This document shows, in pieces, positions 1 to 45,856 of a stretch of 64,000 bases of DNA. The stretch covers positions 434,001 to 498,000 of the forward strand of contig CALJGI010000004.1 in assembly GCA_938074045.1 (NCBI GenBank), in the 5' to 3' direction. How positions within the stretch are numbered: the stretch's first letter is position 1; every line of letters begins with the position of its first letter. The translations under genes and the position numbers were made by a program. The notes under the pieces were generated by a model. That model was not told where the DNA came from and did no database searches. It worked only from the letters and a program-made list of their open reading frames with translations. Origin of the DNA: an uncultured Halieaceae bacterium. GTDB lineage: Bacteria > Pseudomonadota > Gammaproteobacteria > Pseudomonadales > Halieaceae.

Positions 1-915
1 CAGCTTGTGCCAGGCACCGGCCAGGGTCATCATGCCGTTGATCATGCCCCCCCAGGACGGCGCCAGCAGTATGAGAGACATCACCATGCCGAGGCTTTGT
101 GCCCAGTCTGGCAGAGTTGTGTAGTGAAGGTGGTGGGGCCCCGCCCAAATATAGATAGCGACCAAGGCCCAGAAGTGCACAATGCTGAGCCTGTAGGAGT
201 ACACCGGTCGCTCAGCCTGTTTGGGAACGAAGTAATACATGATGCCGAGAAAGCCCGCAGTCAGGAAAAATCCAACCGCATTGTGCCCATACCACCATTG
301 CACCATGGCATCTACTGTGCCTGCGTAGATGGAATACGATTTGAAGGAAGAGACCGGAATGGCCAGGCTGTTCAATATGTGCAGAACGGCGACCGCGATA
401 ATGTAGGCACCAAAGAACCAGTTGGCGACGTAAATATGAGAAGTTTTACGACGGGCAATAGTGCCGAAATAAACGATGGCGTAAAGAACCCAGACAACGG
501 TAATCAACAAATCAATAGGCCACTCCAGTTCGGCGTATTCCTTGCTGCTGGTGAGACCCATAGGCAGCGTTATTGCCGCCAACAGAATTACCAGCTGCCA
601 GCCCCAAAAAACCAGCGCAGCCAGACGGTCAGAGATCAATCTGACCTGACAGGTGCGCTGTACCACATAGAATGAAGTGGTAAACAGCGCGCACCCACCA
701 AAGGCAAAAATCACGGCGTTGGTGTGCAATGGGCGAAGCCTGCCGAAGCTGAGCCAGGGTAGGTCAAAATTCAGTTGCGGCCACACCAACTGTGCGGCAA
801 TCAGGACGCCAACCAGCATTCCTACAATTCCCCACACGACAGTCATCACCGCGAATTGGCGTACAACCTTATAGTTATACACCGGATGTTCCAGGGATTC
901 GTTCAGTTCAGTCAT
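1..915 (-). CDS. ccoN: cbb3-type cytochrome c oxidase subunit I, N-terminal part (truncated by window edge)
   Basis: Catalytic haem-copper subunit of a cbb3 terminal oxidase, an inner-membrane enzyme that reduces oxygen to water at low oxygen tension. Translation starts at the ATG at 915 ([16 protein letters not shown]) and runs off the left edge after about 305 residues, so roughly the last third is missing. Visible motifs are RPLHTNAV (low-spin haem b ligand region), [11 protein letters not shown] (CuB histidine region) and GPHHLHYT (the paired CuB histidines). Several hydrophobic segments alternate with short loops. The GPHHLHYT signature separates it from NorB and from aa3 subunit I. ccoO/ccoP, if present, would lie beyond position 1. 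Confidence 0.93.
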
Positions 916-16847: not shown

Positions 16848-17816
16848 ATGAGTGAATCACGAGAAGCCATTGCTAATCTGCAGCGCATGGTGCGGCAGTC
16901 TGTTATCGGACAGGAGGCAGTGATCGACAAGCTGTTGGTATGCTTAATCTGTGACGGGCATGTATTGTTGGAGGGTTTGCCCGGAACCGCCAAGACCCGG
17001 GCGGTGAAGTGCCTGGCCGAAGCCCTGGACGTGAAATTGGGTCGCATCCAGTTTACGCCTGATTTGCTGCCCTCGGACGTGACGGGAACCGAGGTCTATC
17101 ACGTACACGGTGACCAGGAAAAACTGACTTTTGAGCCGGGACCGATTTTTGCCAACCTGATTTTGGGTGACGAGATAAATCGCGCTCCGGCCAAGGTACA
17201 GTCTGCACTGCTGGAGGCCATGGCAGAACGGCAGGTGACGGTGGCGGGGCAGAGCTACCCCCTGCCGCCACTATTTATGGTGCTGGCAACCCAGAACCCC
17301 ATCGAGCAGGAGGGCACCTACCCACTGCCGGAAGCACAGATGGACCGCTTTATGATGAAGCTGGCGGTGGAATATCCCGGGGAAGAGGCGGAGATTGAAA
17401 TTATCCGTCTGGTGCGTACCGAGGAGCTGGTGGATGATCGCAGCCAGGAAAAAGTAGACCCTGCGGCGATTATGGCGGCGCGGGGCGAAGTGCACAGCCA
17501 CTATGTATCGGAGAACATTGAGCGCTATATCGCCGCGCTGGTCATGGGCACCCGGGAAACTGATCGCTACCCGGCGTCTAGCTTGTCACAGTGGATAGAG
17601 GTGGGGTCCAGTCCGCGCGCCAGCATTAATCTTGATCGCGCTGCCCGGGCCTGGTCCTGGATGCAGGGTAAGGAGTATGTTGATCCCGATGACGTGAGGG
17701 CCGTCGCCGAGGCCGTGCTGGGGCATAGGCTTATTCTGAGCTACGAGGCATTGGCAGAAGGGATTGCACCGCGGGATGTGGTGGCAGAATTGCTGAAGCA
17801 GGTTGCCGTTGCCTGA
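16848..17816 (+). CDS. MoxR-family AAA+ ATPase
   Basis: AAA+ ATPase of 322 residues, a chaperone-like partner of von Willebrand A (VWA) proteins. Walker A GLPGTAKT (about residues 44-51), Walker B LILGDEINRAP (about 105-115), sensor 1 ATQNPIEQEGTYPLPEAQMDRF (about 147-168), and the conserved SPRASI at sensor 2 (about 251-256) are all present. Starts at ATG 16848 and abuts the DUF58 gene (stop 17816, next ATG 17818). In the family, MoxR proteins act with DUF58 and VWA proteins encoded beside them, as here, to assemble or mature other complexes. Confidence 0.94.
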   Translation: MSESREAIANLQRMVRQSVIGQEAVIDKLLVCLICDGHVLLEGLPGTAKTRAVKCLAEALDVKLGRIQFTPDLLPSDVTGTEVYHVHGDQEKLTFEPGPIFANLILGDEINRAPAKVQSALLEAMAERQVTVAGQSYPLPPLFMVLATQNPIEQEGTYPLPEAQMDRFMMKLAVEYPGEEAEIEIIRLVRTEELVDDRSQEKVDPAAIMAARGEVHSHYVSENIERYIAALVMGTRETDRYPASSLSQWIEVGSSPRASINLDRAARAWSWMQGKEYVDPDDVRAVAEAVLGHRLILSYEALAEGIAPRDVVAELLKQVAVA

Positions 17817-17817
17817 G

Positions 17818-18741
17818 ATGGCCGCCGTGGATAACCGGATATACGCCCAGCTATCCGACCTGGTGCGGTTGCAACACGAGGCACGAGGTTTCAGTTTTTT
17901 GCCACAGCAGCCCATATCCAGCGTGCTGGCGGGGCGGCACAACAGTCGCTTGCGGGGACGGGGGCTCAATTTCGAAGAGCTGCGTCACTATCGCACCGGG
18001 GATGATATTCGTACGCTGGACTGGAAGGTCACCCACCGCACCCGCAAGCCCCATGTGAGGGTGTACACCGAGGAGCGGGAGCGGTCAGTTATTATGCTGA
18101 TCGACCAGAGACGCGCGATGTTCTTTGGCTCAAAAGAAAAAATGAAATCGGTCGTTGCGGCTGAGTTGGCCGCGATTTCCGGGTGGCGCACGCTTGGGGT
18201 AGGGGATCGCATCGGCGCCGTGGTGTTCAACGACGAGCGGATAGTGCAGATAAAACCCCAGCGTAACCGGAATACCCTGTTGCGGATATTGCGGCAGGTA
18301 CTGGAGTTCAATCACGCGCTGGGCAGCGAACAGCGAGAGGGATTCAACGAAGGACAGCTTGATCTGGCGCTCAAGGAGGTGGAGAAACTCATGGGCCACG
18401 ATAACTTGCTGACACTGATCAGTGATTTGAGTGGGTGGGGTGAGGGCACCATTGCTTCCATAACGAGGATAGCGCGGCACAACGATGTGATCAGCTCGCT
18501 GATATACGACCCAATGGAGCGCGACCTGCCGGATGCGCGACCCTGGGTAGTGAGTGATGGCGCGCTGCAGATACAAGTGCGACCGGAGACCGCATTGCTG
18601 GATCAATTCAGTGCCAATTTTCAGAATCGTGTCGACTACCTGCAGACAGAACTGCACAAGCACAAGGTTCCTGTACTGCCGCTGGACACGGTTTTGCCGG
18701 TACAGCAGCAGCTGCGTAGCATGATTGGTTCGCATCGCTGA
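17818..18741 (+). CDS. DUF58 domain protein
   Basis: Protein of 307 residues with the DUF58 hallmark RGRGLNFEELRHYRTGDD followed by DWKVTHRTRKPHVRVYTEERER (about residues 45-85). A VWA-like fold follows, with MLIDQRRAMFFGS in place of a full MIDAS. No membrane helix is seen. DUF58 proteins accompany MoxR ATPases in Bat-type operons. ATG 17818 is chosen over an in-frame TTG at 17803 that lies inside the moxR end. The stop overlaps the next start as TGATG. Confidence 0.9.
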   Translation: MAAVDNRIYAQLSDLVRLQHEARGFSFLPQQPISSVLAGRHNSRLRGRGLNFEELRHYRTGDDIRTLDWKVTHRTRKPHVRVYTEERERSVIMLIDQRRAMFFGSKEKMKSVVAAELAAISGWRTLGVGDRIGAVVFNDERIVQIKPQRNRNTLLRILRQVLEFNHALGSEQREGFNEGQLDLALKEVEKLMGHDNLLTLISDLSGWGEGTIASITRIARHNDVISSLIYDPMERDLPDARPWVVSDGALQIQVRPETALLDQFSANFQNRVDYLQTELHKHKVPVLPLDTVLPVQQQLRSMIGSHR

Positions 18742-19247
18742 TGGCCGCGCCTCTGCCTGACATATTTGGCAACTATGCGCTGCGTGGTATTGAAGAAATA
18801 ACGCTGCCAGCAACTATTTCCTGGCTACCACAGACTCCTGCCTCCGGCGTTTTACTCGCAACAATCGCCCTGATTGCAGTGATGATCGCTATGCGATTCT
18901 GGCGGCGTTACAGGAGTAATCGTTATCGACGCGAAGCACTGCAGCTTGTAGATCAGTGGCAGCGCAATCTTGGTCTGTTGGAAACCGTGCACCGTCTACC
19001 GGCCTTGATAAGAGGAGTCGCGCTGAAAGCTTATGCAAGAGAGGAGGTTGCTTCCCTCAGCGGATCGGCATGGCTGGATTTCTTAAACGGTCGATGTGGT
19101 GAGACAGTATTCGATGAGACCCAAGGGCAGATATTGTTGAGCGCTGCTTATCAGGCCCCAGAGCAATTGGGCGCGGATGAGGCCTCAGTTCAAGCGCTGA
19201 TCGATGATTGTAAGCGCTGGATAAGGCAACACCGGAGTACTGGTTGA
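18741..19247 (+). CDS. DUF4381 domain membrane protein
   Basis: Protein of 168 residues with a single membrane helix at about residues 31-50 (VLLATIALIAVMIAMRFW) followed by a basic, helical cytoplasmic domain (RRYRSNRYRREAL..). The ALKAYAREEVASLSGSAWLDFLNG stretch is the conserved core of DUF4381, usually encoded between DUF58 and VWA genes in gammaproteobacterial Bat operons. Start and stop overlap both neighbours as TGATG, indicating translational coupling. No enzymatic motif. Confidence 0.85.
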   Translation: MAAPLPDIFGNYALRGIEEITLPATISWLPQTPASGVLLATIALIAVMIAMRFWRRYRSNRYRREALQLVDQWQRNLGLLETVHRLPALIRGVALKAYAREEVASLSGSAWLDFLNGRCGETVFDETQGQILLSAAYQAPEQLGADEASVQALIDDCKRWIRQHRSTG

Positions 19248-20239
19248 TGCTGGAGTTTGCCTACCCATGGATGTTCCTGTTACTCGTGCTGCCGTTTGTG
19301 GTGTTTCGCATCGCCCCACCTTACCGTGAACGCAGAGACTCATTGCGGGTGCCTTTCTTCCGGGAGTTGGTCACCCTGAGTGGAGAAACACCGCAACGCG
19401 GCGCGGTGGAACTGCAGCGCACTCATTGGCAGCGGGTGGCACTGGCTTTCGGCTGGGTGTTACTGGTTACCTCGCTGGCGCGACCGGAATGGGTTTCAGA
19501 CCCGATCGTCCGGGAGAAATCCGCACGGGATGTGATGATAGCCGTGGATCTCTCGGGCTCTATGGCAGCCACAGATTTTGTTGATAGCAGCGGCCTGCAG
19601 GTCGATCGTTTGACTGCCCTGAAACAGGTATTGGTGGGATTTGTCGCGGGCCGTGGGCGGGACCGGCTGGGCTTGATTGTCTTCGGCGATGCGCCCTACC
19701 TGCAGGCGCCGTTTACCGAGGACCACGACACCTGGTTGACGCTCCTGCGCGAAACTGACATCGGTATGGCCGGTCAGCGCACGGTGCTGGGGGACGCCAT
19801 TGGTCTGGCGATAAAACTGTTTGAGGACAGCGCCACCGAAAACCGCGTTCTGGTGGTGTTGACGGATGGCAATGACACGGGGTCCCGCGTGCCTCCGGTT
19901 GATGCCGCCAAGGTGGCAGCGGCCAGAGGTCTGACCATCTACACTGTGGCGATTGGCGACCCGGCGACACAGGGAGAAGAGGCGCTGGATTTCGAAGTCA
20001 TAGCGCGATTGGCAGAGCTGACTGATGGCGACTATTACGTGGCGCTGGATAGAGAGCAGCTCAGCGCCGCCTCGGACGCTATCGCTGCGCGGGAGCCTGA
20101 GCTGTATGACAGCGTCAGCTTCAGACCCCGAATCAACATTTACTATCTGCCGTTGCTCCTGTTCATCGCCATGTTTGCCCTGTTTCACACAACCTTGATG
20201 GTGCTGGCGGCGCAAGCGCGGAGACGGGTCGATGCTTGA
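19247..20239 (+). CDS. batA: VWA domain membrane protein, BatA-like
   Basis: Protein of 330 residues. A short membrane segment near the N-terminus (YPWMFLLLVLPFVVF) and a second at about 60-75 precede a von Willebrand A domain with a complete MIDAS: VDLSGSM (DxSxS), threonine loop near GMAGQRTVLGD, and LTDGNDTGS. A C-terminal helix (YYLPLLLFIAMFALFHTTLM) anchors the domain facing the periplasm. Start at ATG 19247, overlapping the DUF4381 stop; its own stop overlaps the next gene by 8 bases. Bat proteins are linked to stress or oxygen tolerance, but that role is poorly proven. Confidence 0.9.
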   Translation: MLEFAYPWMFLLLVLPFVVFRIAPPYRERRDSLRVPFFRELVTLSGETPQRGAVELQRTHWQRVALAFGWVLLVTSLARPEWVSDPIVREKSARDVMIAVDLSGSMAATDFVDSSGLQVDRLTALKQVLVGFVAGRGRDRLGLIVFGDAPYLQAPFTEDHDTWLTLLRETDIGMAGQRTVLGDAIGLAIKLFEDSATENRVLVVLTDGNDTGSRVPPVDAAKVAAARGLTIYTVAIGDPATQGEEALDFEVIARLAELTDGDYYVALDREQLSAASDAIAAREPELYDSVSFRPRINIYYLPLLLFIAMFALFHTTLMVLAAQARRRVDA

Positions 20240-21836
20240 CTCGCTGTGGTGGCAGAATTTTCACTTTCTCAGGCCCTGGTGTTTGCTGTTTTTGCTGACC
20301 TCTGTGCTTTATGTGTGGTGGATATGGCGTGACAATGCACGGAGTCTGGGTTGGAAGCAGTTGTTGTCGCCGCATTTGTATCGAGTGCTGTTGGTGCGCG
20401 ACCGCAAATCCGTTTGGGTGAGCCCGCGAAGTCTGGTTACGGTCTTGTCGGTGCTGATCAGTTTGGCTTTGGCTGGCCCGACCTGGGAGAGAACGCCGTC
20501 ACCCTTTGCGGAGGACAAAGCGGCCCTGGTGATTTGCCTGGACGTGTCCAACTCCATGAATCAGCGGGATGTGCAGCCCACGCGACTTGACCGCGCGCGC
20601 ATGAAAATCCGGGATTTGTTGGCGTTGCGTGGGGACAGTCGAACCGGGTTGGTTGTATACAGTGGTTCCGCGCACACAGTGATTCCACTGACCAGTGACC
20701 GCGATATCCTGGAAAATTTCGTCGACTCGCTGAATACCGGCATGATGCCGCGACCCGGGAAATTCCCGGATCGGGCGTTGGGACTCGCCGATCGCATGCT
20801 CGCGGCCGAACCCGTTCCCGGGACCATCCTTTTTTTGACCGACGGAGCCAGCACCGACAGCCTCGCTACCTTTGAGCAGTATTTTGCCGAGAGCCGCCAT
20901 CAATTGTTGGTGCTGGGTGTTGGCGCTGCCGCTGAAGAAGAACTGGAAGACAGCTATTTACCTTTGCAGGAACAGCTGCTGCAGGACCTTTCCTCTGCCT
21001 CTGGTGGGCACTACGTGGGCCTGAGTCTGGATCGCGGTGACGTGCAAAACCTGAATCGCCGCATCAACTACCACTTGCAATTGATGCAGGGCGAAGAGGG
21101 GACCGTTCCCTGGGAGGACGCAGGTTATTATCTCGTTTTTATTATTGCCGCATTGGTGCTTACCTGGTTTCGGCGCGGATGGACGCTGCAATTCTCTGTG
21201 CTGCTCGTGGTCTCGAGCACTTTTCTCACGCCGGGCACCGCACAGGCGTCTGATGATTGGCTGCAACTGTGGCTGACGCCGGATCAGATGGGACGTTATC
21301 ACTTCGAGCGCGGTGATTACGAAACAGCCGCCAGTCATTTTGTCGATACCCGGTGGCGAGCATCCGCCTATTACTATGCTGAGCAATTCGACGCTGCGGC
21401 AGACCTGTACCTGCAATTGGACAGTGCCGCGGGGTACTTTCACGCCGCCAACGCGATGGCGCACAGTCAGCGCTATCTCGACGCCGTGGGTGCCTATGAT
21501 GAAACCTTGCGGCGGCAACCCGGACACAAGGGAGCGCTGAAGAATCGAGCCCTGGTGCAGGTGCTGATTGATGACATTAACCGCACCAGCGAATCCCAGA
21601 AGGCTGAACCCGGGGAGCGCAGCGATGAGCTGGGTGATGAACCGCGTCGCGCTGAGGGTGCTGACCGGGAAACCTGGCAGCAGCAGGAGCAAACCCTGAG
21701 CGCGGAGGATATTCTGGCCAGCCAGGCTATTAATGACCTGTGGATGCGGGAGGTGCAGCCCAGTCCAGCGCGCTTTCTCGCCATCAAATTTCGCATGCAG
21801 CTGGACAAAAACCTGGGTACCGCGGCCGATGAGTAG
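20232..21836 (+). CDS. VWA-TPR membrane protein, fused BatB/BatC-like
   Basis: Protein of 534 residues combining a VWA domain and tetratricopeptide repeats, which in many bacteria are separate genes (BatB and BatC). Membrane helices lie near residues 10-30 and 60-78; MIDAS VICLDVSNSMNQRD is at about 96-109 with FLTDGAS at about 198. A helix at about 300-340 is followed by TPR-type repeats rich in Tyr/Ala (HFERGDYETAASHF, SQRYLDAVGAYDETLRRQPG) to about 430. The charged tail includes EPGERSDELGDEPR. Start at ATG 20232 inside the end of batA; its end overlaps the BatD-like gene by 8 bases. Confidence 0.88.
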   Translation: MLDSLWWQNFHFLRPWCLLFLLTSVLYVWWIWRDNARSLGWKQLLSPHLYRVLLVRDRKSVWVSPRSLVTVLSVLISLALAGPTWERTPSPFAEDKAALVICLDVSNSMNQRDVQPTRLDRARMKIRDLLALRGDSRTGLVVYSGSAHTVIPLTSDRDILENFVDSLNTGMMPRPGKFPDRALGLADRMLAAEPVPGTILFLTDGASTDSLATFEQYFAESRHQLLVLGVGAAAEEELEDSYLPLQEQLLQDLSSASGGHYVGLSLDRGDVQNLNRRINYHLQLMQGEEGTVPWEDAGYYLVFIIAALVLTWFRRGWTLQFSVLLVVSSTFLTPGTAQASDDWLQLWLTPDQMGRYHFERGDYETAASHFVDTRWRASAYYYAEQFDAAADLYLQLDSAAGYFHAANAMAHSQRYLDAVGAYDETLRRQPGHKGALKNRALVQVLIDDINRTSESQKAEPGERSDELGDEPRRAEGADRETWQQQEQTLSAEDILASQAINDLWMREVQPSPARFLAIKFRMQLDKNLGTAADE

Positions 21837-23166
21837 GCATTTACTGTTTACCCGTGCCAGTTGGTTGCTGGTATTGGCATGGCTCTTGTGCCCAGCATGG
21901 TCAGTTGCGCAACCCGCGGTAACACTGGAAGAATTGCTGCAGGAGGGTCGGCTGCAGATTGAAACAACATTGATACCAGCAGAGCCCGCCGTTCCGACAC
22001 AGCAGGTTGAGCTCGTCATCGAAATTGCAACTGATCGCTGGTTTGCTGCGGGCACCCGGATTGGATTGTTTGAGGTAGAGGGTGCGCTGTTACTGCGTCG
22101 GAATTCATTTGCCACGAATCTGACCCGCCGTATTCGCGGGCAAACCTGGACGGTTCAGTTGTGGACCATGCACCTGCACCCGCAGCGAAATGGTGAGATA
22201 CAGGTTCCGGCAATCAATCTGGACATCACCGTCGCCGGGGATGATGGACGGCCGGTTGTTGGCCGCGTGCAAACCAACCCTGTCACCCTGTCTGTGTCCA
22301 CACCGGGGGATCTGGCTCCGCCCGGGGCTTCTGCCAAAACCGGCTGGGTGGCAACGGACTCGTTCCTGGTCGAGGAGAAGTTCAGCCGCTCACTGGAAAA
22401 CCTGAAACCCGGTGATGCCGTCACCCACACCGTCTCATTCGAGGCCAACAATCTGCCGGCTTTGTTATTGCCCACATTGTCACACACCACCATTGATGGT
22501 CTTGGTGTGTATCCACAGCAGCCAAAGTTTTCCGACAGCAATAACCGCGGCGTGGTTACCGGCCGCCGTATTGAGGCTGTAACGTATGTGCTAGAAAAAC
22601 CCGGGAGCTTTGTGCTGCCGCAACAGGAATTTGTCTGGTGGCACACCGGATTCCGGGAGCGGCGCATTGTTGTCTTGCCAGAGTTCAAGTTAGAGACAAT
22701 TGATTATGTCGCGCCGGTGGAGTCGGAGGTTTCTTCACCAGTTCCGGAGAGGGTTGACTGGACCTCTATGGCGACCGCTGCAGTCGTTTTTGTACTCTTG
22801 CTATTCTTACTGGTGCGAAGACGGTCGCAAGCGCTGCGAGAAGCTGAAGCGCCTGTACAGCCTGTTTCCCTTGCGCAATTGGAGCGCCAGTTCGCCGCAC
22901 ATTGCCGGCGTGACGATCCGCAGCAGGCCATCGCCGTGCTCTATCGGTGGTTGGATTATTCGGGCAGCCAGCCTGACACGATTGGTTTCCGCCAGCGACT
23001 GGAGGTTTCCGGCGAGACACAGCTTGTTAGGGATTTTGATGTATTACTGTCCCGGGTATACAGTGGGGAACCCGCTACTGCCCGGATATCGCCGATTCCG
23101 CTGCGGCGATTAAGAAAATCCCTCGCAAACAAGCGCGTGGTAAGTAGCGATTTTTCATTAAACTGA
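21829..23166 (+). CDS. batD: BatD-like exported membrane protein
   Basis: Protein of 445 residues with a signal peptide (SWLLVLAWLLCPAWSVAQ) and a large beta-rich periplasmic region containing GDAVTHTVSFEANNLPALLLP, close in style to BatD. One transmembrane helix at about 310-330 (ATAAVVFVLLLFLLVRR) and a cytoplasmic helical tail follow. ATG 21829 is used because the signal peptide starts there and it overlaps the previous stop; the frame is open upstream inside the preceding gene. Last gene of the coupled MoxR/Bat run; the next gene starts 35 bases on. Confidence 0.85.
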   Translation: MSRHLLFTRASWLLVLAWLLCPAWSVAQPAVTLEELLQEGRLQIETTLIPAEPAVPTQQVELVIEIATDRWFAAGTRIGLFEVEGALLLRRNSFATNLTRRIRGQTWTVQLWTMHLHPQRNGEIQVPAINLDITVAGDDGRPVVGRVQTNPVTLSVSTPGDLAPPGASAKTGWVATDSFLVEEKFSRSLENLKPGDAVTHTVSFEANNLPALLLPTLSHTTIDGLGVYPQQPKFSDSNNRGVVTGRRIEAVTYVLEKPGSFVLPQQEFVWWHTGFRERRIVVLPEFKLETIDYVAPVESEVSSPVPERVDWTSMATAAVVFVLLLFLLVRRRSQALREAEAPVQPVSLAQLERQFAAHCRRDDPQQAIAVLYRWLDYSGSQPDTIGFRQRLEVSGETQLVRDFDVLLSRVYSGEPATARISPIPLRRLRKSLANKRVVSSDFSLN

Positions 23167-24296: not shown

Positions 24297-24363
24297 AATT
24301 TTGCTGATTTGCATCTACACTGGGGGAGTCTAAAATTTAGTGACGCATGCAAAGGAGACAATA

Positions 24364-25563
24364 ATGAAAACCTACAGCATGGAACATCCGGAGCTCGGCA
24401 TAATCAGTTACACAGATAAGAAACGCTATCTCTGGCTGGCCTCGTTTTTTATGCCCCTTTTTCCCATGATGGGCGTATTCGCCTATTACGCCAGCGGCAG
24501 TGAGTGGGCGCTGGGTATTCCGCTGTTTTTCTCATACGTGGTCATTCCCTTTCTCGATTGGGGGCTGGGCTCAGATGAAAACAACCCGCCCGAAGAGCTG
24601 GTGCCACAGCTGGAGGCTGACAGTTATTATCGCATTCTCACCTACGTCACTGTTCCCATGCACTTTGTCGTTCTCATTGCCATCGCCTGGTTTGTGGGTA
24701 CACATGAACTGACTATATGGTCGGTAATTGCGCTGGCCATCACCGCCGGCTCCTACAGTGGATTGGGTATTAATACCGGACATGAGCTGGGACACAAGAA
24801 AACCGAACTGGAACGTTGGCTGGCGAAAGTTGTACTGGCGGTTCCTACTTATGGCCATTTCTGTATTGAGCACAATCGTGGGCATCACACGCATGTAGCT
24901 ACGGCGGAAGATCCGGCCAGTTCCCGCATGGGTGAATCCATTTACAAATTTCTACTGCGGGAGATACCCGGCGCCTGGCGCCGTGGCTGGGCTGTGGAGC
25001 GCGAGCGGTTGGCGCGTAAAGGAAAGAGCCCATGGTCACTGGAGAATGACATCCTGCAATCCTACGCCATCAGCGCAGTGCTGCAGGGCGGACTTCTCTT
25101 CGTCTTTGGCTGGATCATGGTTCCCTTCCTGGCCATTCACAATTTTTGGGCCTGGTATCAATTGACCAGCGCTAACTACATTGAGCATTATGGCCTGCTG
25201 CGCCAGAAGGAGGAGAGTGGCCGCTATGAGCGCTGCCAGCCTCACCATTCATGGAATGCGAATTATATTTTCAGCAATCTGGTGTTGTTTCATCTGGAGC
25301 GGCACTCAGATCACCACGCCAACCCCACCCGGCGTTACCAGAGTTTGCGCAACTTTGAAAATCTTCCAGAACTTCCCAACGGCTACTATGGCATGTACAT
25401 CCTCGCCTATATTCCCTGGCTTTGGTACAAGGTGATGGATAAGCGGTTACTCGAATTGCCGCATATCAACGGGGATCTGTCCCGGGTAAATATCGATCCG
25501 GACGCCAGGGAATCGATTTACCAACGTTACGGGCAGGGTCAGATGCCTGCTGCCGCAGGCTGA
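24364..25563 (+). CDS. alkB: Alkane 1-monooxygenase
   Basis: Integral-membrane non-haem di-iron hydroxylase of 399 residues that converts n-alkanes to 1-alkanols using electrons from rubredoxin. Six hydrophobic segments surround the eight-histidine set: NTGHELGHKK, HNRGHHTHVATAEDPASSR, and LERHSDHHANP; NYIEHYGLLR is the alkane-hydroxylase signature. Start at ATG 24364 with AAAGGAGACAATA upstream; the frame is open to a GTG at 24340 but that lacks such a site. Followed after 13 bases by rubredoxin, its expected electron donor. Confidence 0.96.
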   Translation: MKTYSMEHPELGIISYTDKKRYLWLASFFMPLFPMMGVFAYYASGSEWALGIPLFFSYVVIPFLDWGLGSDENNPPEELVPQLEADSYYRILTYVTVPMHFVVLIAIAWFVGTHELTIWSVIALAITAGSYSGLGINTGHELGHKKTELERWLAKVVLAVPTYGHFCIEHNRGHHTHVATAEDPASSRMGESIYKFLLREIPGAWRRGWAVERERLARKGKSPWSLENDILQSYAISAVLQGGLLFVFGWIMVPFLAIHNFWAWYQLTSANYIEHYGLLRQKEESGRYERCQPHHSWNANYIFSNLVLFHLERHSDHHANPTRRYQSLRNFENLPELPNGYYGMYILAYIPWLWYKVMDKRLLELPHINGDLSRVNIDPDARESIYQRYGQGQMPAAAG

Positions 25564-37850: not shown

Positions 37851-38468
37851 TCAGTCCAGTATGACCAGGTGATCCGGTAGCTCGTTGCGGTCGTGGGTGG
37901 CCGGAGCATGGGTGATCATGATGTCGCCACAGGCGCGGATGCACTCGATAAAGCCCGCCGCCGTGTCACCACGTTTAACGGCGCTGATCAAATTGTCGAC
38001 AATGGTCTGCCATTCGTCCTGGCTGACGTGTTGATCGATGCCGCGATCAGCAATGATTTCCACATAGTGTTCTGCTTCAGATACAAAGATCAGCACACCG
38101 GTTTCGCCTTCGGTGTGATGCAGGTTGTTGTCCAGAAACTGCCGTCTCGCCAGATTCCCCGCCCGCCACTGGCGCACGCTGGCTGGAATCAAACGCAGTA
38201 GCAATGGTGGCCAGCGAAACACAATGGCAGCGATCACGAACACAGCAAATTGAGCGAGGATAATATCCGAGAGCTCAAGCCACAGGCTGCTTAAAGACAG
38301 CGTGACAGGTGTCAGCAGGGCCAGCAGGGCAGCCCACAGCGTTGGAATATAGTGGTAGTCGTCACTTTGCGCGGCGAGTACAGTCACCAGTTCGGCGTCA
38401 GTCCTTTTCTCAACCTCGGCAATAGCCGCGCTGATTGCCGCGTAGTCCTGCTCGTTAATCAAAGCCAT
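37851..38468 (-). CDS. TPM domain membrane protein (second of pair)
   Basis: Protein of 205 residues. Helix-rich N-terminus ALINEQDYAAISAAIAEVEKRTDAELVTVLA, two membrane helices (about 47-100), then a TPM-type segment TGVLIFVSEAEHYVEIIADRGIDQHVSQDEW. Short TPM proteins of this type accompany a longer YgcG-like TPM and LemA. ATG 38468 overlaps the previous stop as TAATG and has AGGGGG upstream. Its end leaves 8 bases to the convergent gamma-glutamyltransferase-like gene. Confidence 0.82.
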   Translation of the reverse strand: MALINEQDYAAISAAIAEVEKRTDAELVTVLAAQSDDYHYIPTLWAALLALLTPVTLSLSSLWLELSDIILAQFAVFVIAAIVFRWPPLLLRLIPASVRQWRAGNLARRQFLDNNLHHTEGETGVLIFVSEAEHYVEIIADRGIDQHVSQDEWQTIVDNLISAVKRGDTAAGFIECIRACGDIMITHAPATHDRNELPDHLVILD

Positions 38469-39211
38469 TACCATCCCCCTGAGGCGCCACCGCCCCCGAA
38501 GCTGCCGCCACCGCCACTGAAGCCGCCGCCGAAACCGCCGCCGCTTCTGCTACTTCCCATGCCGAGGGGCAGAAAAAACAATCCGCGGCGACGGCGGCGT
38601 CCACCGCCCATGCCACCAAAAAACTGGATTAACATGATAACTATAAAGAGAGCAAAGCCACCTAGATCGCTGCGAGAAGTGCTACTGCTACGACCACCGC
38701 TGCGCATTTTGTACTCCCCACCCAGGGCCTGAACAATAGACTGTGTACCCGCCAGCATGCCCTCTTCGAACTGGCCCTTGCGGAACTGTGGCAGCATGAC
38801 AGCGTTGACAATATTGGAGCTGATGGCGTCGGTCAGCTGGCCTTCCAGACCATAGCCCACCTCGACACGGACTTTGCGCTCACTTTTAGCCAATAACAGA
38901 AGCACGCCATTATTCTTGTCTTTTTGCCCAATCTGCCAGTGGCGCCCCAACTGGTAGCCATAGTCGGCGATGTCGTAGCCCTGAAGATCTTTTACCGTTG
39001 CCACGACAATCTGGTTGCCGGTGGCCTGTTCGTGCCCCTGAGCGAGGGCGTCGATTTTAGCTTCTGTCGTTTTCGACAGCATGCCTGCGGTATCCACAAC
39101 ACGGCCGGACAACTTCGGAAAGCTGGGTGCAGCGGTGGTGGTCGTGGATACGATTGGCAATATCAGGCCGATCAACAACGCAGCGATGGGCCTGGATAGG
39201 TACGTAATCAA
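38468..39211 (-). CDS. YgcG-like TPM domain protein with Gly-rich tail
   Basis: Protein of 247 residues: signal peptide (LIGLILPIVSTTTTAAP), a TPM domain (LSGRVVDTAGMLSKTTEAKIDALAQ, KVRVEVGYGLEGQLTDAISSNI), a membrane helix at about 180-200 (FALFIVIMLIQFFGGMG), a basic patch (GGGRRRRRG) and a tail almost wholly Gly/Ser/Phe, where the DNA is a run of GCC-type triplets. TPM proteins bind calcium or act with LemA in envelope upkeep. Start at ATG 39211; 20 bases after the lemA stop. Confidence 0.88.
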   Translation of the reverse strand: MITYLSRPIAALLIGLILPIVSTTTTAAPSFPKLSGRVVDTAGMLSKTTEAKIDALAQGHEQATGNQIVVATVKDLQGYDIADYGYQLGRHWQIGQKDKNNGVLLLLAKSERKVRVEVGYGLEGQLTDAISSNIVNAVMLPQFRKGQFEEGMLAGTQSIVQALGGEYKMRSGGRSSSTSRSDLGGFALFIVIMLIQFFGGMGGGRRRRRGLFFLPLGMGSSRSGGGFGGGFSGGGGSFGGGGASGGW

Positions 39212-39231
39212 GAGAAGTTGTCCGCTGTTCC

Positions 39232-39828
39232 CTAGAATTCCACGCTGGGTGCCTGCTCGGCTCCGGCAGTGGTTGCAGAATACGAGTCACGAACCTGCAT
39301 ATCACTGTACATAATCATGTGCCAGATGCGTCCGGGGAAGGTCCGAATTTCGGTGTTGTAGCGTCCCACCGCACCAATGTAGTCCTTACGCGCCACGCTG
39401 ATGCGGTTTTCCGTTCCCTCCAGCTGCGATTGCAGGGTGAGAAAGTTCTGATTCGCTTTGAGATCCGGATAGCGCTCGGCGACCACCATAAGGCGACGCA
39501 GGGCTGACGACAGTTCGCCTTGTGCCTGGTCAAATTGAGCCATGGCCTGCGGGTTGTCCAACAGGTTGTTGCCCAGCTGTATGGTTCCGACTTTGGCCCG
39601 GGCCTCGGTAACTGCAGTGAGAGTTGTACTTTCGTGGGCGGCGTATCCTTTTACCGTGGACACCAGATTGGGAATAAGGTCGGCGCGTCGCTGGTATTGA
39701 TTTTCAACCTGGGCCCAGTTCGACTTGACCTGCTCGTCCAGTGTTGGAATTGTATTGATGCCACACCCGGCAAGGGTGGTAATAAGCGCTGTGCAGAATA
39801 GAGCGCGCAAGCTGGAATACTTGGTCAT
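39232..39828 (-). CDS. lemA: LemA family lipoprotein
   Basis: Lipoprotein of 198 residues with lipobox LAGC (about 21-24) and the LemA core: LDEQVKSNWAQVENQYQRRADLIPNLVSTVKGYA, then a long helical hairpin and PGRIWHMIMYSD. ATG 39828 with AGGAGGACCACC. First gene of a three-gene LemA-TPM-TPM operon read leftward. The family is envelope-associated; function unclear. Confidence 0.93.
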   Translation of the reverse strand: MTKYSSLRALFCTALITTLAGCGINTIPTLDEQVKSNWAQVENQYQRRADLIPNLVSTVKGYAAHESTTLTAVTEARAKVGTIQLGNNLLDNPQAMAQFDQAQGELSSALRRLMVVAERYPDLKANQNFLTLQSQLEGTENRISVARKDYIGAVGRYNTEIRTFPGRIWHMIMYSDMQVRDSYSATTAGAEQAPSVEF

Positions 39829-39885
39829 GGTGGTCCTCCTTGAAGGCCTATAGTATGACATATTTGAACGCACCAGTTGGATGAG

Positions 39886-40362
39886 ATGACCGAACAGATT
39901 CACAGTAGCACCATGCGACCTGAAGATCTTCGCGATAGTCTGAAGGGTTTGTTGTCCGGCGAATACAACTGGCTGGCAAATTGTGCCAACTTTTGTGCAC
40001 TGCTATACCAGGAATTGCCTGGACTGAATTGGGCCGGATTCTATTATCCGGACGAGGATGGTCTCGTGCTCGGGCCCTTTCAGGGCAAACCGGCCTGCGT
40101 GCGCATCGGCGCCGGCCGCGGCGTCTGCGGTGCGGCGGCGAAGAATTTACAGACCCAGCGGGTTGCCGATGTACACGCATTTCCCGGACATATCGCCTGC
40201 GATATTGCATCGCGCTCGGAACTGGTTGTGCCACTGCTGGTCGGCGGGGAGTTCAGGGGTGTGCTTGATCTCGACAGCCCAGAGCTTAATCGCTTTACCG
40301 CGGAAGACCAGGCCGTTATCGAACATTTGTGCCGGGAATTTTGCGAGCATCACGCGGTCTAA
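39886..40362 (+). CDS. msrC: GAF-domain free methionine-(R)-sulfoxide reductase
   Basis: Single GAF-domain enzyme of 158 residues that reduces free Met-R-sulfoxide. NWAGFYYPDEDGLVLGPFQGKPACVRI has the first conserved Cys, GAGRGVCG the second and FPGHIACD the third, the three cysteines of fRMsr; SELVVPLLVGGEFRGVLDLDSP completes the site. Start at ATG 39886; a TTG at 39877 in the same frame is less likely. Divergent from lemA with a 57-base gap. Confidence 0.92.
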   Translation: MTEQIHSSTMRPEDLRDSLKGLLSGEYNWLANCANFCALLYQELPGLNWAGFYYPDEDGLVLGPFQGKPACVRIGAGRGVCGAAAKNLQTQRVADVHAFPGHIACDIASRSELVVPLLVGGEFRGVLDLDSPELNRFTAEDQAVIEHLCREFCEHHAV

Positions 40363-40400
40363 TTTTTGGCTATACTTCGCTCAGGGGGTCTCTGTTTGTC

Positions 40401-41564
40401 ATGAAGCTGCATCGCTGCCTCATTCCCCGCACAACTATTGTGTGTACGGTGGTGCTGCTTGTTGCCTGCGCAACTCAGGTAGAGAACAATGACTGGCAAC
40501 AATTGCCCGCGCTAAAGGTAGACAGTGGCGAGATTAGCGCCGTGAATGCCGCGGCTGAGCTTCCCCTCGAGGATCTGCTGGAACTGGACGAGGAAATGGA
40601 GGCCTTCCTCGACCGCTATGTCCGCAAATCCAGAGGGCAGCGCACCCGCCTGCTTCTCTTGCACCAGGCACTGCGATCCCTTGGCATTGTGGGTGTTGAA
40701 TACGATCCTGCCGCCAATGGTACAGCCCGCGAAGCGTTTCACGAGCGGCGCGCCAATTGCCTTTCCTATGCCAATCTTTTTGTCGCCCTGGCCCGCGCTG
40801 TGGGACTTCGCGCGGGTTATCAAGTCGTTGAAACCAAACCTGAATGGGATAAACGGGGAACAAGGTTGGCGGTTGCCATCCATGTGAATGCGGTCGTGGA
40901 CCTGAAAAACCAGGAGCGATTTGAGGTGGATATTGACCCCTTGTCACGAGCGCGCATCATGGGTACGCGGCGAATAAGTGATCGAGAGGCTGAAGCGCTG
41001 CACTATAACAATATCGGGATGGAGTTGTTTTTAGAGGGGGATACTCCCGATGCATACCGCCATCTGGCCCGAGCGTTGCAGATCGAGCCCAGGCTGCATA
41101 TGTTATGGGCCAATATCGGTGCCATATACCGGTCTGCCGGGCAGCATGTAGCGGCTGAGCATAGTTATCAGACCGCATTAGCATACGACTCGCGCTCGCG
41201 TACGGCCATGAACAACCTGGCTGTGCTATATCAAACACAAGGTTACGAAAGACGAGCGCAGGATATGCTCGATCAGATAAAGCGCCACCGCGAGAGCAAC
41301 CCCTATTATCATTTTCAGCTGGCTGAGGCTGCTGAGTTTGATGGTGACTACGAACTTGCGATAGACCACCTGAAGGAAGCCATCGACAGAAAGGATTCAG
41401 ACGCCGAATTCTATTATCTGCTGGGTCGCGCGTTGCATAAGGCTGAGCGGATCGAGGAAAGCATTGAAAGCCTCGAACTTGGCATGAAGAAGGCGGGTCT
41501 GTTCACCCAGCGGGAGCGTATCCGCCATTATCTTCAGGAGGTAATGGGCGAAGCGGCGATGTAG
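40401..41564 (+). CDS. Transglutaminase-like/TPR lipoprotein
   Basis: Protein of 387 residues with a lipobox (LLVACA, about 17-22). Residues ~80-170 are a transglutaminase-like thiol domain: FHERRANCLSYANLFVALARAVG holds the Cys, AIHVNAVVD the His, and an Asp follows. From about residue 220 on there are five or so TPR-like repeats (YNNIGMELFLEGDTPDAYRHL, WANIGAIYRSAGQH, AMNNLAVLYQTQGY, FYYLLGRALHKAERIEESI). It is probably a periplasmic protein-interaction scaffold. ATG 40401; AGGGGG lies somewhat far upstream. Tail-to-tail overlap of 31 bases with the PPOX gene. Confidence 0.85.
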   Translation: MKLHRCLIPRTTIVCTVVLLVACATQVENNDWQQLPALKVDSGEISAVNAAAELPLEDLLELDEEMEAFLDRYVRKSRGQRTRLLLLHQALRSLGIVGVEYDPAANGTAREAFHERRANCLSYANLFVALARAVGLRAGYQVVETKPEWDKRGTRLAVAIHVNAVVDLKNQERFEVDIDPLSRARIMGTRRISDREAEALHYNNIGMELFLEGDTPDAYRHLARALQIEPRLHMLWANIGAIYRSAGQHVAAEHSYQTALAYDSRSRTAMNNLAVLYQTQGYERRAQDMLDQIKRHRESNPYYHFQLAEAAEFDGDYELAIDHLKEAIDRKDSDAEFYYLLGRALHKAERIEESIESLELGMKKAGLFTQRERIRHYLQEVMGEAAM

Positions 41565-43615: not shown

Positions 43616-45856
43616 GTGAGGCCGTACATATTTTTCCTGGCTCTGCTGGCACTGCCGGCAGCGGCCGCGGAGTACGTAGGTAGTGATACCTGTGCCGGGT
43701 GCCACAGCAAGGAGGCCGCTCTCTGGCAGGACTCACATCATCACGATGCGATGCTGCCCGCCACCGATGCAACCGTGGCGGGTGACTTTGCCGATGCCGA
43801 ATACACTCACTTTGAAGTTACCAGCCGATTTTTTCGCCGCGGCGATGACTTTTTGGTCAACACTGAGGATAGCGCGGGCAAGCGCCAGGATTTCACCGTG
43901 CGCTATACCTTTGGTGTACACCCGCTGCAGCAATATCTGGTGGAATTTCCCGGGGGCCGGTTACAGGCGCTGAGTGTGGCCTGGGACAATCGGGCTGTCG
44001 GGGAGGGCGGGCAACGCTGGTTTCATCTCTATCCGGACGAGCCGGTTCCCGCCGGGGACGTGCTGCACTGGAGTCGACACTTTCACAATTGGAATCTGCG
44101 TTGCGCGGAATGTCATTCCACCGGTCTGCAGAAAAATTACTCGCCGGTGACAGACACCTACCAGGCTGCCTGGTCAGAGGTAAATGTAGCCTGCGAAGCC
44201 TGCCATGGGCCGGGTAGCGGCCATGCTGAATGGGCGGCTGAGCCAGAGAAACATGCCGCTGATACTGCTATTGGAAAGAATCGAGGTTTTGATGTCGACC
44301 TTGGCGGCGGCGGACAATGGCAGCCTGTGCCGGGGTCGACAGCGCAATTGTCCGGGGCGCCGGGTAGTCGACAGCAGTTGGACGTCTGTGCGCCCTGCCA
44401 TTCACGTCGCTCTGTGGTTGAAACACCTGTGGTGGGTGACGTGTTTCTGGATAACTACCGCTTGGCGCTACTCACGCCGGACCTCTACCACCCTGACGGC
44501 CAGATTCTGGACGAAGTGTATGTCTATGGGTCCTTCGTGCAGAGCAAGATGTATGCCGAAGGCGTAGTGTGCACAGATTGCCACAACCCTCACAGTGCCG
44601 AGGTATACGTAGAGGACAATGGCTTGTGTGTGCGCTGTCATAGTGCAGAGACCTTCGATACTCCTTCCCACCATCATCATGCGGAGGGAAGTGCAGGGGC
44701 TCAATGCGTCGAGTGTCATATGCCAGAGACGACCTATATGGTAGTGGATCCCCGGCGTGACCATAGCCTGCGAATACCCAACCCATTGGTGACCGAAATA
44801 ACGGGAGCCCCGAATGCCTGCAGCGCTTGTCACAGCGATCAACCCCTTTCCTGGGTGCTGGAAAACTACCGTAAACGCCATGGCAATGTGGCTGTTCCCG
44901 CACATGCAATTAGTTTTCATCGAGCCCAGCGGGGCGCCAGTGACAGCGGTGCGCGCCTGGCGGCCACAGCCATGGATGTAGATCTGCCGGCGTTCATTCG
45001 AGCGAGCGCCGTCGAGTTACTGGCAGGTTTTCCAGGCAGGGAGGCCACGATGGTGGCGGCTCAACTGGTGTACGATGACGAAGCGCTGATACGACGCGCC
45101 GGGGCGACTCTGGTCGCCAATCTGGCACCCGGGCAACGCGTGGCGATTCTTGCACCGCTGCTGGAAGATGACTACGCATCGGTGCGGGCAGAGGCGGCAC
45201 GAGTACTTGCCTCCATGCCTACAGAAGACAGAGATCCGACGCAGGCTGCTGTATTCCAGCGAGCAGAGAAGGCATATTTGGACAGCCTGCAATACAACCT
45301 GGATGCGCCGGGTGTGCACTTGAATCTGGGCGCCACCTATAGTCAACGGGGTGATCGAGTGCGAGCAGAAGCCGCGTACCGGCAAGCCCTGAAGCTGGAC
45401 GACAGATTCTTGCCAGCGTTGCTGAATCTGGCTGATGTTTATCGTGCTGGCGGGGAGGACTGGCGCTCCCGGCCGCTGCTGAAAAAAGCCATTCAAATTG
45501 AGCCCTCCTACGCCGATGCCCACTATGCAATGGGTTTGTTGCTGGTGCGTCAGAAACGCTATGAGCAGGCCCGTGAGTACCTGAGTCAGGCCGTGGAACT
45601 GCGGCCCGATGAATCCCGTTATACCTATGTATACGCCGTGGCACTGCACAGCAACGACGAGGTACCCCAGGCCGTGGCGGTGCTTGAGCGCGGTTTGCAC
45701 CATCGTCCGGAAGATCTACAGCTGCTGGTGACGCTGGCACAGTTTCATGCCCAGGCGGGTGATATCTTCAGAGCACGCGCGGTTGCTGAGCGGGCACTTT
45801 CCCTTGCGCCAGGTGATCAGCAAATTCGCCAGCTGGTGTCCAGTCTGTCCCGATGA
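43616..45856 (+). CDS. Octahaem cytochrome c with HEAT-like and TPR repeats
   Basis: Exported protein of 746 residues. A signal peptide (IFFLALLALPAAAAEY) is followed by a cytochrome region with eight CxxCH haem sites: CAGCH (~27), CAECH (~162), CEACH (~192), CAPCH, CTDCH, CVRCH, CVECH and CSACH (~400). HEAT-like helices (AVELLAGFPGREATMVAAQL, LAPLLEDDYASVRAEAARVL) cover about 455-540, then TPR repeats (VHLNLGATYSQRGDRVRAEAAYRQAL, ALLNLADVYRAGG, AHYAMGLLLVRQKRYEQA) to the end. Histidine clusters (SHHHDAM, SHHHHAEG) could supply distal haem ligands. Probably a periplasmic redox/electron-transfer enzyme; substrate unknown. GTG start at 43616 with a weak site. Confidence 0.87.
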   Translation: MRPYIFFLALLALPAAAAEYVGSDTCAGCHSKEAALWQDSHHHDAMLPATDATVAGDFADAEYTHFEVTSRFFRRGDDFLVNTEDSAGKRQDFTVRYTFGVHPLQQYLVEFPGGRLQALSVAWDNRAVGEGGQRWFHLYPDEPVPAGDVLHWSRHFHNWNLRCAECHSTGLQKNYSPVTDTYQAAWSEVNVACEACHGPGSGHAEWAAEPEKHAADTAIGKNRGFDVDLGGGGQWQPVPGSTAQLSGAPGSRQQLDVCAPCHSRRSVVETPVVGDVFLDNYRLALLTPDLYHPDGQILDEVYVYGSFVQSKMYAEGVVCTDCHNPHSAEVYVEDNGLCVRCHSAETFDTPSHHHHAEGSAGAQCVECHMPETTYMVVDPRRDHSLRIPNPLVTEITGAPNACSACHSDQPLSWVLENYRKRHGNVAVPAHAISFHRAQRGASDSGARLAATAMDVDLPAFIRASAVELLAGFPGREATMVAAQLVYDDEALIRRAGATLVANLAPGQRVAILAPLLEDDYASVRAEAARVLASMPTEDRDPTQAAVFQRAEKAYLDSLQYNLDAPGVHLNLGATYSQRGDRVRAEAAYRQALKLDDRFLPALLNLADVYRAGGEDWRSRPLLKKAIQIEPSYADAHYAMGLLLVRQKRYEQAREYLSQAVELRPDESRYTYVYAVALHSNDEVPQAVAVLERGLHHRPEDLQLLVTLAQFHAQAGDIFRARAVAERALSLAPGDQQIRQLVSSLSR

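Follow-up and report, generated by a model that had tools for sequence, protein, structure and literature searches.

An octahaem cytochrome c with a HEAT-like/TPR arm as a candidate periplasmic redox partner of Cys-type sulfatases

OCC (octahaem cytochrome c / HEAT-like / TPR protein) is the 746-residue product of a gene at 43616..45856 (+ strand, GTG start, stop codon following) in a 64,000-nucleotide stretch of DNA from an uncultured Halieaceae bacterium (contig CALJGI010000004.1, positions 434,001 to 498,000; hereafter the window). Genes for its relatives recur close to genes for sulfatases with a Cys-type (formylglycine) motif and, to judge from these gene neighbourhoods and from genome-level co-occurrence, the sulfatases are probably true functional partners of the cytochrome. 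That OCC serves them as a periplasmic redox partner, equipped with a docking arm and concerned with a redox step that the sulfatases share, is the reading we favour, tentatively and at slightly under an even chance.

Sulfatase genes beside OCC

The closest linkage is seen on plasmids. OCC is present on 146 plasmid records, 124 of them from Rhizobium or Sinorhizobium, and 14 of the 146 were read, taken from the best and spread lists and including several rhizobia. A sulfatase lies within 3 kb of OCC in 13 of these 14 loci (in L175 and L177 as detected by tblastn), namely those of Vibrio (two), Rhizobium (two), Sinorhizobium/Ensifer (three), Methylosinus, Methylocystis, Roseibium, Alisedimentitalea, Rhodobacteraceae SC52 and Pseudoalteromonas. 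The gene order sulfatase, HAD hydrolase, OCC is found in S. meliloti, R. johnstonii, E. canadensis, Roseibium and SC52; the sulfatase gene and OCC overlap by 4 bases in Methylosinus trichosporium, and the sulfatase is located 106 bp upstream of OCC in Methylocystis. All 15 sulfatases that were read are Cys-type (12 from plasmid loci, one from Colwellia and two from the own genome of the window) and belong to three groups, CTAGR, CTPGR and CSPTR, with ∼20–40% identity between groups; the sulfatases of L175 and L177 are likewise CTAGR. On Sinorhizobium, Rhizobium and Ensifer plasmids (L179, L180 and L182) the sulfatase-HAD-OCC run is divergent from a sensor kinase and response regulators, suggesting regulated expression.

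A broader view is given by 80 loci, the best 80 of at least 181 confirmed relatives, with one genome per species scanned. A CTAGR-type sulfatase is present at 13 of them (tblastn, E 1e-60), and a sulfatase cluster of any kind touches 20 loci. The titles of these records name Pseudomonas, Halomonas, Colwellia, Roseobacter-type bacteria and Sulfurovum, as well as Planctomycetota, Verrucomicrobia, Acidobacteria and Bacteroidota-type bacteria, and the OCC architecture recurs across at least six phyla. On a quick OCC tree, in which 30 of 64 inner branches have support below 80, sulfatase adjacency requires at least seven changes of state and adjacency of Bat genes (see below) at least six, which argues for linkages that were repeatedly gained or lost rather than for one inherited block. 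The window copy forms a lone branch (0.78) with no starred sister group on this tree. One relative, G033, carries two OCC paralogues (C1:220175, L039, and C2:533781, L035), and a CTAGR sulfatase gene lies immediately upstream of the latter, whose flank also includes a gene for MoxR.

Co-occurrence at the genome level points in the same direction. The haem-HEAT region is found in 29 of 38 relatives (E 1e-20, own genome counted), the match in G022 covering query residues 360–524 only and that in G024 being split in two, and a CTAGR sulfatase (E ≤1e-100) is present in 26 of the 29 OCC-positive relatives versus 1 of the 9 OCC-negative ones (Fisher p 2.8e-5, uncorrected for phylogeny). In a sample of the class, OCC occurs in 11 of 184 genomes (E 1e-40, own genome counted), and with the own genome set aside a CTAGR sulfatase accompanies it in 3/10 OCC-positive versus 5/173 OCC-negative genomes (p 0.006, phylogeny ignored). 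Among 30 hand-chosen OCC genomes, a non-random set made up of the own genome and 29 of the 80 loci, most of the latter from named isolates, a CTAGR sulfatase is present in 25 (E 1e-100) and some sulfatase match in all 30 (1e-10). The own genome carries CTAGR sulfatases outside the window (L130:7565-9109 and L128:9040-10602) that have signal-like N-termini, and the L128 gene sits after a gene that, judged by eye, resembles those of TonB-dependent receptors, suggesting uptake of sulfated compounds.

Haem domain and repeat arm of OCC

The eight CxxCH sites that the initial annotation placed in the first ∼400 residues of OCC are confirmed, all lying within residues 1–406. They are, on the + strand, site 1 (CAGCH, residue 26, 43691..43705), site 2 (CAECH, residue 163, 44102..44116), site 3 (CEACH, residue 193, 44192..44206), site 4 (CAPCH followed by SRR, residue 258, 44387..44401, with Arg265 invariant in the alignment), site 5 (CTDCH, residue 319, 44570..44584), site 6 (CVRCH, residue 338, 44627..44641), site 7 (CVECH, residue 364, 44705..44719) and site 8 (CSACH, residue 402, 44819..44833). 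All 16 cysteines of OCC belong to these sites and none is spare. At most one CxxCH per protein arises in 2000 shuffles of OCC, and in the other stop-to-stop frames of the window longer than 80 residues a single CxxCH is the most that occurs, in three of them. Sites 1 and 2 are separated by a beta-rich insert (residues ∼44–140, 43745..44035, +; strands in the model, filled in 67/67 rows of the alignment described below) that had gone without mention in the initial annotation. The N-terminus, MRPYIFFLALLALPAAAAEYVG, looks by eye like a Sec signal peptide (probably residues 1–18, 43616..43669, +), and OCC is thus apparently exported, whether periplasmic or otherwise.

Also borne out is the presence of HEAT-like helices and TPRs in the same chain. 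Cytochrome_C7 and Cytochrome_C554 exceed their Pfam cut-offs in OCC and the TPR families do so by far (TPR_2, E 1.1e-18), whereas the HEAT_2 match at residues 461–532 is weak (E 0.0015; 19.2 bits, below the cut-off of 27.7). The AlphaFold model of OCC built from a 67-row alignment (mean pLDDT 93.6, pTM 0.91) has consecutive helices at 411–531 followed by TPRs, so that the label ‘HEAT-like’ is fair despite the sub-threshold profile match. The HEAT-like repeats (residues 425–535) extend over 44888..45220 (+) and the TPR superhelix (residues 541–746; Pfam, model and fold match) over 45236..45853 (+); a fold search with the whole model matches the TPR part to MamA (3vty) at Z 21.5, with a root-mean-square deviation (rmsd) of 2.8 over 174 aligned residues. 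The haem region is single-copy in the own genome, where the eight other matches to OCC span only residues 502–742.

The alignment comprises the window copy and 66 open reading frames, out of 98 candidate frames of 600–900 residues, and its ‘67/67’ counts apply to these selected rows: L037, L038, L060, L099, L102 and L113 were left out, and L077, L085, L087, L093 and L098, which are OCC-positive by tblastn, were missed by frame calling. Five of the omitted frames (L037, L038, L060, L102 and L113) have fewer than eight motifs and are truncated, split or N-terminally incomplete; L099 has seven motifs in a 692-residue frame and stands outside the alignments. All eight motifs are invariant in 67/67 rows and present in 14/14 plasmid copies. 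At least 80% of the HEAT part is occupied in 67/67 rows; the same holds for the whole TPR part in 63/67 and for its second half in 57/67. This second half is missing in the Roseobacter-type loci L083, L097 and L103, and also in L112 at a contig edge, and several alphaproteobacterial plasmid copies are C-terminally shorter, with frames of only 650–690 residues. As motifs and arm are kept in relatives, the fusion is an established and widespread architecture and no oddity of its own genome.

The haem domain (residues 18–425, 43667..44890, +) was modelled separately (pLDDT 91), because fold searches with the whole model returned TPR proteins that are uninformative on the haems. Foldseek ranked OmhA (6qvm) and MccA and did not have OcwA (6i5b) among its top 50; when VIA was run on the Foldseek candidates, 6i5b came out first, with Z 19.4 and rmsd 3.2 over 326/408 residues (model 1..408), followed by OmhA (Z 13.5, rmsd 3.3, 268 aligned) and MccA (Z 8.7, rmsd 4.4, 282 aligned). 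NrfA, c554 and the Thioalkalivibrio multihaem nitrite reductases follow at Z ∼5; HAO and OTR are missing from the VIA list, which excludes nothing. The sequence profile also ranks 6i5b first (E 1.4e-20), with the haem sites in the same order. These matches, which rest on a predicted model, make it very likely that the haem domain belongs to the OcwA/OmhA-MccA branch.

According to the OcwA report (PMC6703420), six OcwA haems (1, 3, 4, 6, 7 and 8) have bis-His ligation and haem 9 has His-Met ligation, with 2 and 5 left open; those numbered 1–4 and 6–9 can be superposed on the haems of MccA, whose active haem has a copper site, and a beta-sheet domain is common to OcwA and MccA and not to other NrfA-family proteins. 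The profile alignment pairs the OCC motifs with OcwA 1–4 and 6–9, motif 4 being assigned to OcwA 4 rather than 5 on weak local alignments, and OcwA haem 5 appears to be absent from OCC. Pairing of OCC with OcwA minus haem 5 would require six distal His and one Met, with haem 2 open; the invariant residues in 67/67 rows comprise six non-motif His (42, 203, 326, 352, 355 and 383) and, besides the start, three Met (312, 369 and 375). We infer six bis-His haems, one His-Met haem (predicted by homology to be haem 8) and one open haem (haem 2, predicted by homology with OcwA haem 2 to be of catalytic type), the residue counts being a consistency argument for ligation and not a structure. Tyr291-His292 (44486..44491, +) would sit where the His-His pair of OcwA haem 2 (HH281/282) is expected and are candidate residues of the haem 2 distal pocket, residue 291 being Tyr in 67/67 rows and residue 292 His in 47/67.

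OCC resembles OcwA, the nonahaem surface reductase of Thermincola potens, in the fold of the whole haem domain, the haem order, the beta insert and the fitting ligand counts, and differs in having eight haems rather than nine, in carrying behind the haem domain, in the model, a HEAT-like/TPR solenoid at the place of the three-helix bundle of OcwA, and in its occurrence in Gram-negative bacteria, where sulfatases and Bat genes adjoin it. OmhA, the undecahaem cytochrome of Carboxydothermus ferrireducens, is the second-best fold and has eleven haems by its PDB title compared with eight in OCC. The octahaem sulfite reductase MccA/SirA (4rkm/4rkn) shares with OCC the branch and the number of haems, and the proposed haem set of OCC (1–4, 6–9) is the OcwA set that superposes on MccA. 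The copper of MccA is bound by cysteines, and since no OCC cysteine lies outside the haem motifs, an MccA-type copper site is excluded. For SirA, one atypical haem-binding motif is reported, whereas all eight motifs of OCC are plain CxxCH. The cytochrome c554 and NrfA families, with four and five haems, are only distantly similar in fold (Z ∼5); most members of the pentahaem NrfA family bind the catalytic haem through CxxCK, whereas OCC has eight haems and no CxxCK.

The initial annotation had tied the novelty of OCC to the lack of a characterised homologue and of a named family for its haem packing. In the first respect, no close characterised homologue was found in PDB, Pfam, NCBIfam or literature searches; in the second, the haem domain matches the named OcwA/OmhA-MccA branch, with one haem fewer than OcwA and no cysteines for the copper site of MccA. 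The family is known already under generic annotations (‘multiheme c-type cytochrome’, ‘tetratricopeptide repeat protein’, ‘cytochrome c3 family protein’ or hypothetical), and the branch of its haem domain is known. No TPR/HEAT octahaem cytochrome was described in the titles and abstract openings found in the open-licence PMC literature, which is no proof of absence.

MoxR-Bat genes and other neighbours

A complete Bat operon lies on the same strand as OCC, 20 kb upstream in the window (16848–23166, +). It encodes a MoxR AAA+ ATPase (16848..17816), a DUF58 protein (17803..18741), a DUF4381 protein (18741..19247), a BatA-type VWA protein (19244..20239), a BatB-type VWA protein with a weak TPR match (20232..21836) and a BatD-type protein (21733..23166; PF13584, with a score equal to the cut-off). 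The same set of MoxR, DUF58, DUF4381, two VWA proteins and BatD is found beside OCC elsewhere: at least two Bat genes are present in the flanks at 16 of the 80 loci, upstream or downstream and often directly adjoining OCC, in Pseudomonas, Halomonas, Aestuariicella, Pseudomaricurvus, Pseudoteredinibacter, Colwellia, Parasedimentitalea and a Sulfurovaceae metagenome-assembled genome. The own genome has a second, more divergent Bat operon on contig C20 (L129), and MoxR and BatA of the window are nearer to the OCC-linked types than the C20 copies are. Literature searches aimed at this point returned no paper tying Bat to a multihaem cytochrome or a sulfatase and, with the limits given above for titles and abstract openings, no sulfatase-Bat-cytochrome cluster.

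The SYLF, SDR and asnS genes that flank OCC in the window, and whose conservation the initial annotation had raised, have no match at the other loci L011–L119, for which flanks of ∼1.5 kb (L011–L039) or up to 8 kb (L040–L119) were compared; among the plasmid loci, which are a separate set, an SDR gene adjoins OCC in L178. These neighbours are uninformative, and the linkage to sulfatases and Bat genes is the lead that matters. Further genes of the window include one for a transglutaminase-core and TPR protein (40329–41564, +), upstream of the SDR gene and unmatched in the other compared loci; a LemA-like gene followed by two TPM/YgcG-type-like genes, one with a glycine-rich tail by eye (37851–39903, −); and, near the Bat operon, a gene for a membrane protein like AlkB-type alkane monooxygenase, with histidine boxes recognised by eye (24340–25563, +).

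Candidate functions and their weight

In the favoured reading, haem 2 would be the single open haem, and the other seven would by homology form an electron wire. The HEAT-like/TPR solenoid may dock a protein partner, which would be an exported-looking Cys-type arylsulfatase, joined in some lineages by a MoxR AAA+/BatA-BatB-BatD membrane machine. The redox step of OCC in the oxidising periplasm would form, feed electrons for, or protect the active-site cysteine/formylglycine, and MoxR-Bat, where found, might assemble or activate the complex. As three divergent sulfatase groups adjoin OCC, a redox step common to sulfatases is most likely, and to our knowledge cysteine-to-formylglycine chemistry is the only one that divergent sulfatases have in common. 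The initial annotation had suggested that the repeats form a built-in surface for partners; docking is indeed plausible, HEAT being filled in 67/67 and TPR in 63/67 rows, and the recurrent partners, sulfatases and MoxR-Bat, had not figured there. A part for this redox step in sulfatase activation, of whatever kind, is conceivable, with the balance inclining a little against it, and a direct action of Bat on OCC or on a sulfatase is about equally tentative.

Several observations weigh against this reading. Of the 51 loci flanked on either side by 6 kb or more, 33 have neither Bat genes nor a CTAGR-type sulfatase; the Qingshengfaniella plasmid (L178) has no sulfatase, the sole exception of the 14; no CTAGR sulfatase is seen at E 1e-100 in 5 of the 30 chosen genomes with OCC; and in the own genome, 60 kb separate OCC from the start of the CTAGR copy that shares its contig. 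With the relatives restricted to genomes at least 90% complete and the own genome excluded, the sulfatase contrast stands at 23/26 versus 1/5 (p 0.005, phylogeny ignored). BatA, tried as a presence/absence correlate of OCC at the genome level, shows no association (5/10 versus 74/173).

The best-surviving alternative casts OCC as a reductase serving respiration or detoxification, with small oxyanions or nitrogen compounds (such as nitrite or hydroxylamine) as substrates, or as a shuttle or metal reductase like OcwA, and has the sulfatases share its habitat only. One locus, in Ensifer, is near nitrous-oxide reductase genes. In Dethiobacter (PMC10376724), OcwA/OmhA homologues are found in clusters that encode separate NHL- and TPR-repeat proteins, the latter being suggested by the authors to aid secretion or orientation of surface multihaems; the repeats are thus separate proteins in Dethiobacter, whereas in OCC they are in the same chain. 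A shared habitat alone does not readily account for sulfatases of three divergent groups repeatedly lying so close to OCC, and OCC has neither the copper cysteines of MccA nor an NrfA-like CxxCK haem. We consider a reductase function unlikely on balance, and still the strongest competitor of the sulfatase partnership.

Type I sulfatases need a formylglycine residue, and a second alternative has OCC make it directly, the solenoid docking the unfolded sulfatase, the active-site cysteine being oxidised and the electrons leaving via the haem wire. Maturases were searched in 38 genomes, 33 OCC-positive and 5 OCC-negative with a CTAGR sulfatase. FGE is recognised by a cysteine pair; the best PF03781 matches were read in 36 of the 38 genomes (G240 and G245 had none), together with one weaker match each in G000, G184, G226, G229, G046, G141 and G113. 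The pair is present in four of the 38: G229 and G247 (OCC-positive), and G184 and G214 (OCC-negative), where FGE is 1.5 kb from a CTAGR sulfatase in G214 and a second pair-bearing FGE is ∼170 bases from one in G184. anSME (TIGR03942) exceeds its cut-off in one of the 38, the OCC-positive G232, and eight further OCC-positive genomes have anSME-like matches of 112–120 bits against a cut-off of 349. In the own genome no anSME match was found at 1e-30, and both PF03781 matches are without the cysteine pair. By these criteria, neither maturase was seen in 30 of the 33 OCC-positive genomes (25 of the 28 with a CTAGR sulfatase).

The scarcity of anSME (1/33) and of the FGE pair (2/33) among OCC-positive genomes, together with the divergent Cys-type sulfatases that adjoin OCC, would suit formylglycine formation by OCC, and one paper (PMC6189696) treats an unidentified prokaryotic maturation route as an open question. 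However, three of the five OCC-negative genomes with a CTAGR sulfatase (G046, G113 and G141) show neither maturase in the matches read, so that the contrast is weak, another route must exist, and complementarity is not proven; G229 and G247 carry both OCC and an FGE-like pair, and the eight sub-threshold anSME-like matches may be other maturases. OCC as a plain replacement for FGE/anSME is weakened by G046, G113 and G141 and by G229 and G247. The unexplained maturation in E. coli would, moreover, require OCC in that species, and we know of no OCC there. Neither FGE nor anSME families appear in the top 25 Pfam matches or the top 25 NCBIfam matches of OCC. Owing to the weak maturase contrast between OCC-positive and OCC-negative genomes, direct formylglycine formation by OCC is rated improbable. 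The wider proposal that OCC, with or without MoxR-Bat, is an unrecognised periplasmic sulfatase-activation system, whose solenoid would dock unmodified Cys-type sulfatases and which would perform or power formylglycine formation without FGE/anSME, is just as speculative.

FGE was also considered as a co-operonic maturase, on account of a Colwellia PF03781 protein (L072:6996-7877) encoded between the sulfatases and OCC; this protein is without the cysteine pair and has matches at E 1e-10 in only 14 of the 30 chosen OCC genomes. A similar gene adjoins a sulfatase in G232, and these appear to be inactive-looking FGE paralogues.

A third explanation makes OCC a MoxR-Bat client in envelope stress or oxygen tolerance, the sulfatase link being secondary. 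MoxR/VWA pairs activate metalloenzymes in other systems, and Bat genes are beside OCC or a few genes from it in Pseudomonas, Halomonas, Colwellia and others. Against this, MoxR/BatA is present at only one of eight plasmid loci searched (L177) and named in none of six further annotated loci, and BatA presence does not follow OCC; we regard the explanation as quite improbable. TPR and HEAT solenoids can mediate assembly and the TPR part resembles MamA, but the self-assembling redox complex or wire that the initial annotation envisaged is most improbable, given that L083, L097 and L103 do without the second half of the TPR part and several alphaproteobacterial plasmid frames reach only 650–690 residues.

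The sulfatase partnership, at the tentative strength given above, makes OCC a concrete and testable candidate for a missing redox partner of divergent Cys-type sulfatases, and homologues occur in rhizobia, methanotrophs and Pseudomonas that are amenable to genetics. A link between sulfatases and a multihaem cytochrome would surprise specialists. Even without a sulfatase role, the presence in Gram-negative bacteria, Pseudomonas and rhizobia among them, of an OcwA-type haem domain joined to a HEAT/TPR arm would extend this branch of cytochromes past extracellular electron transfer.

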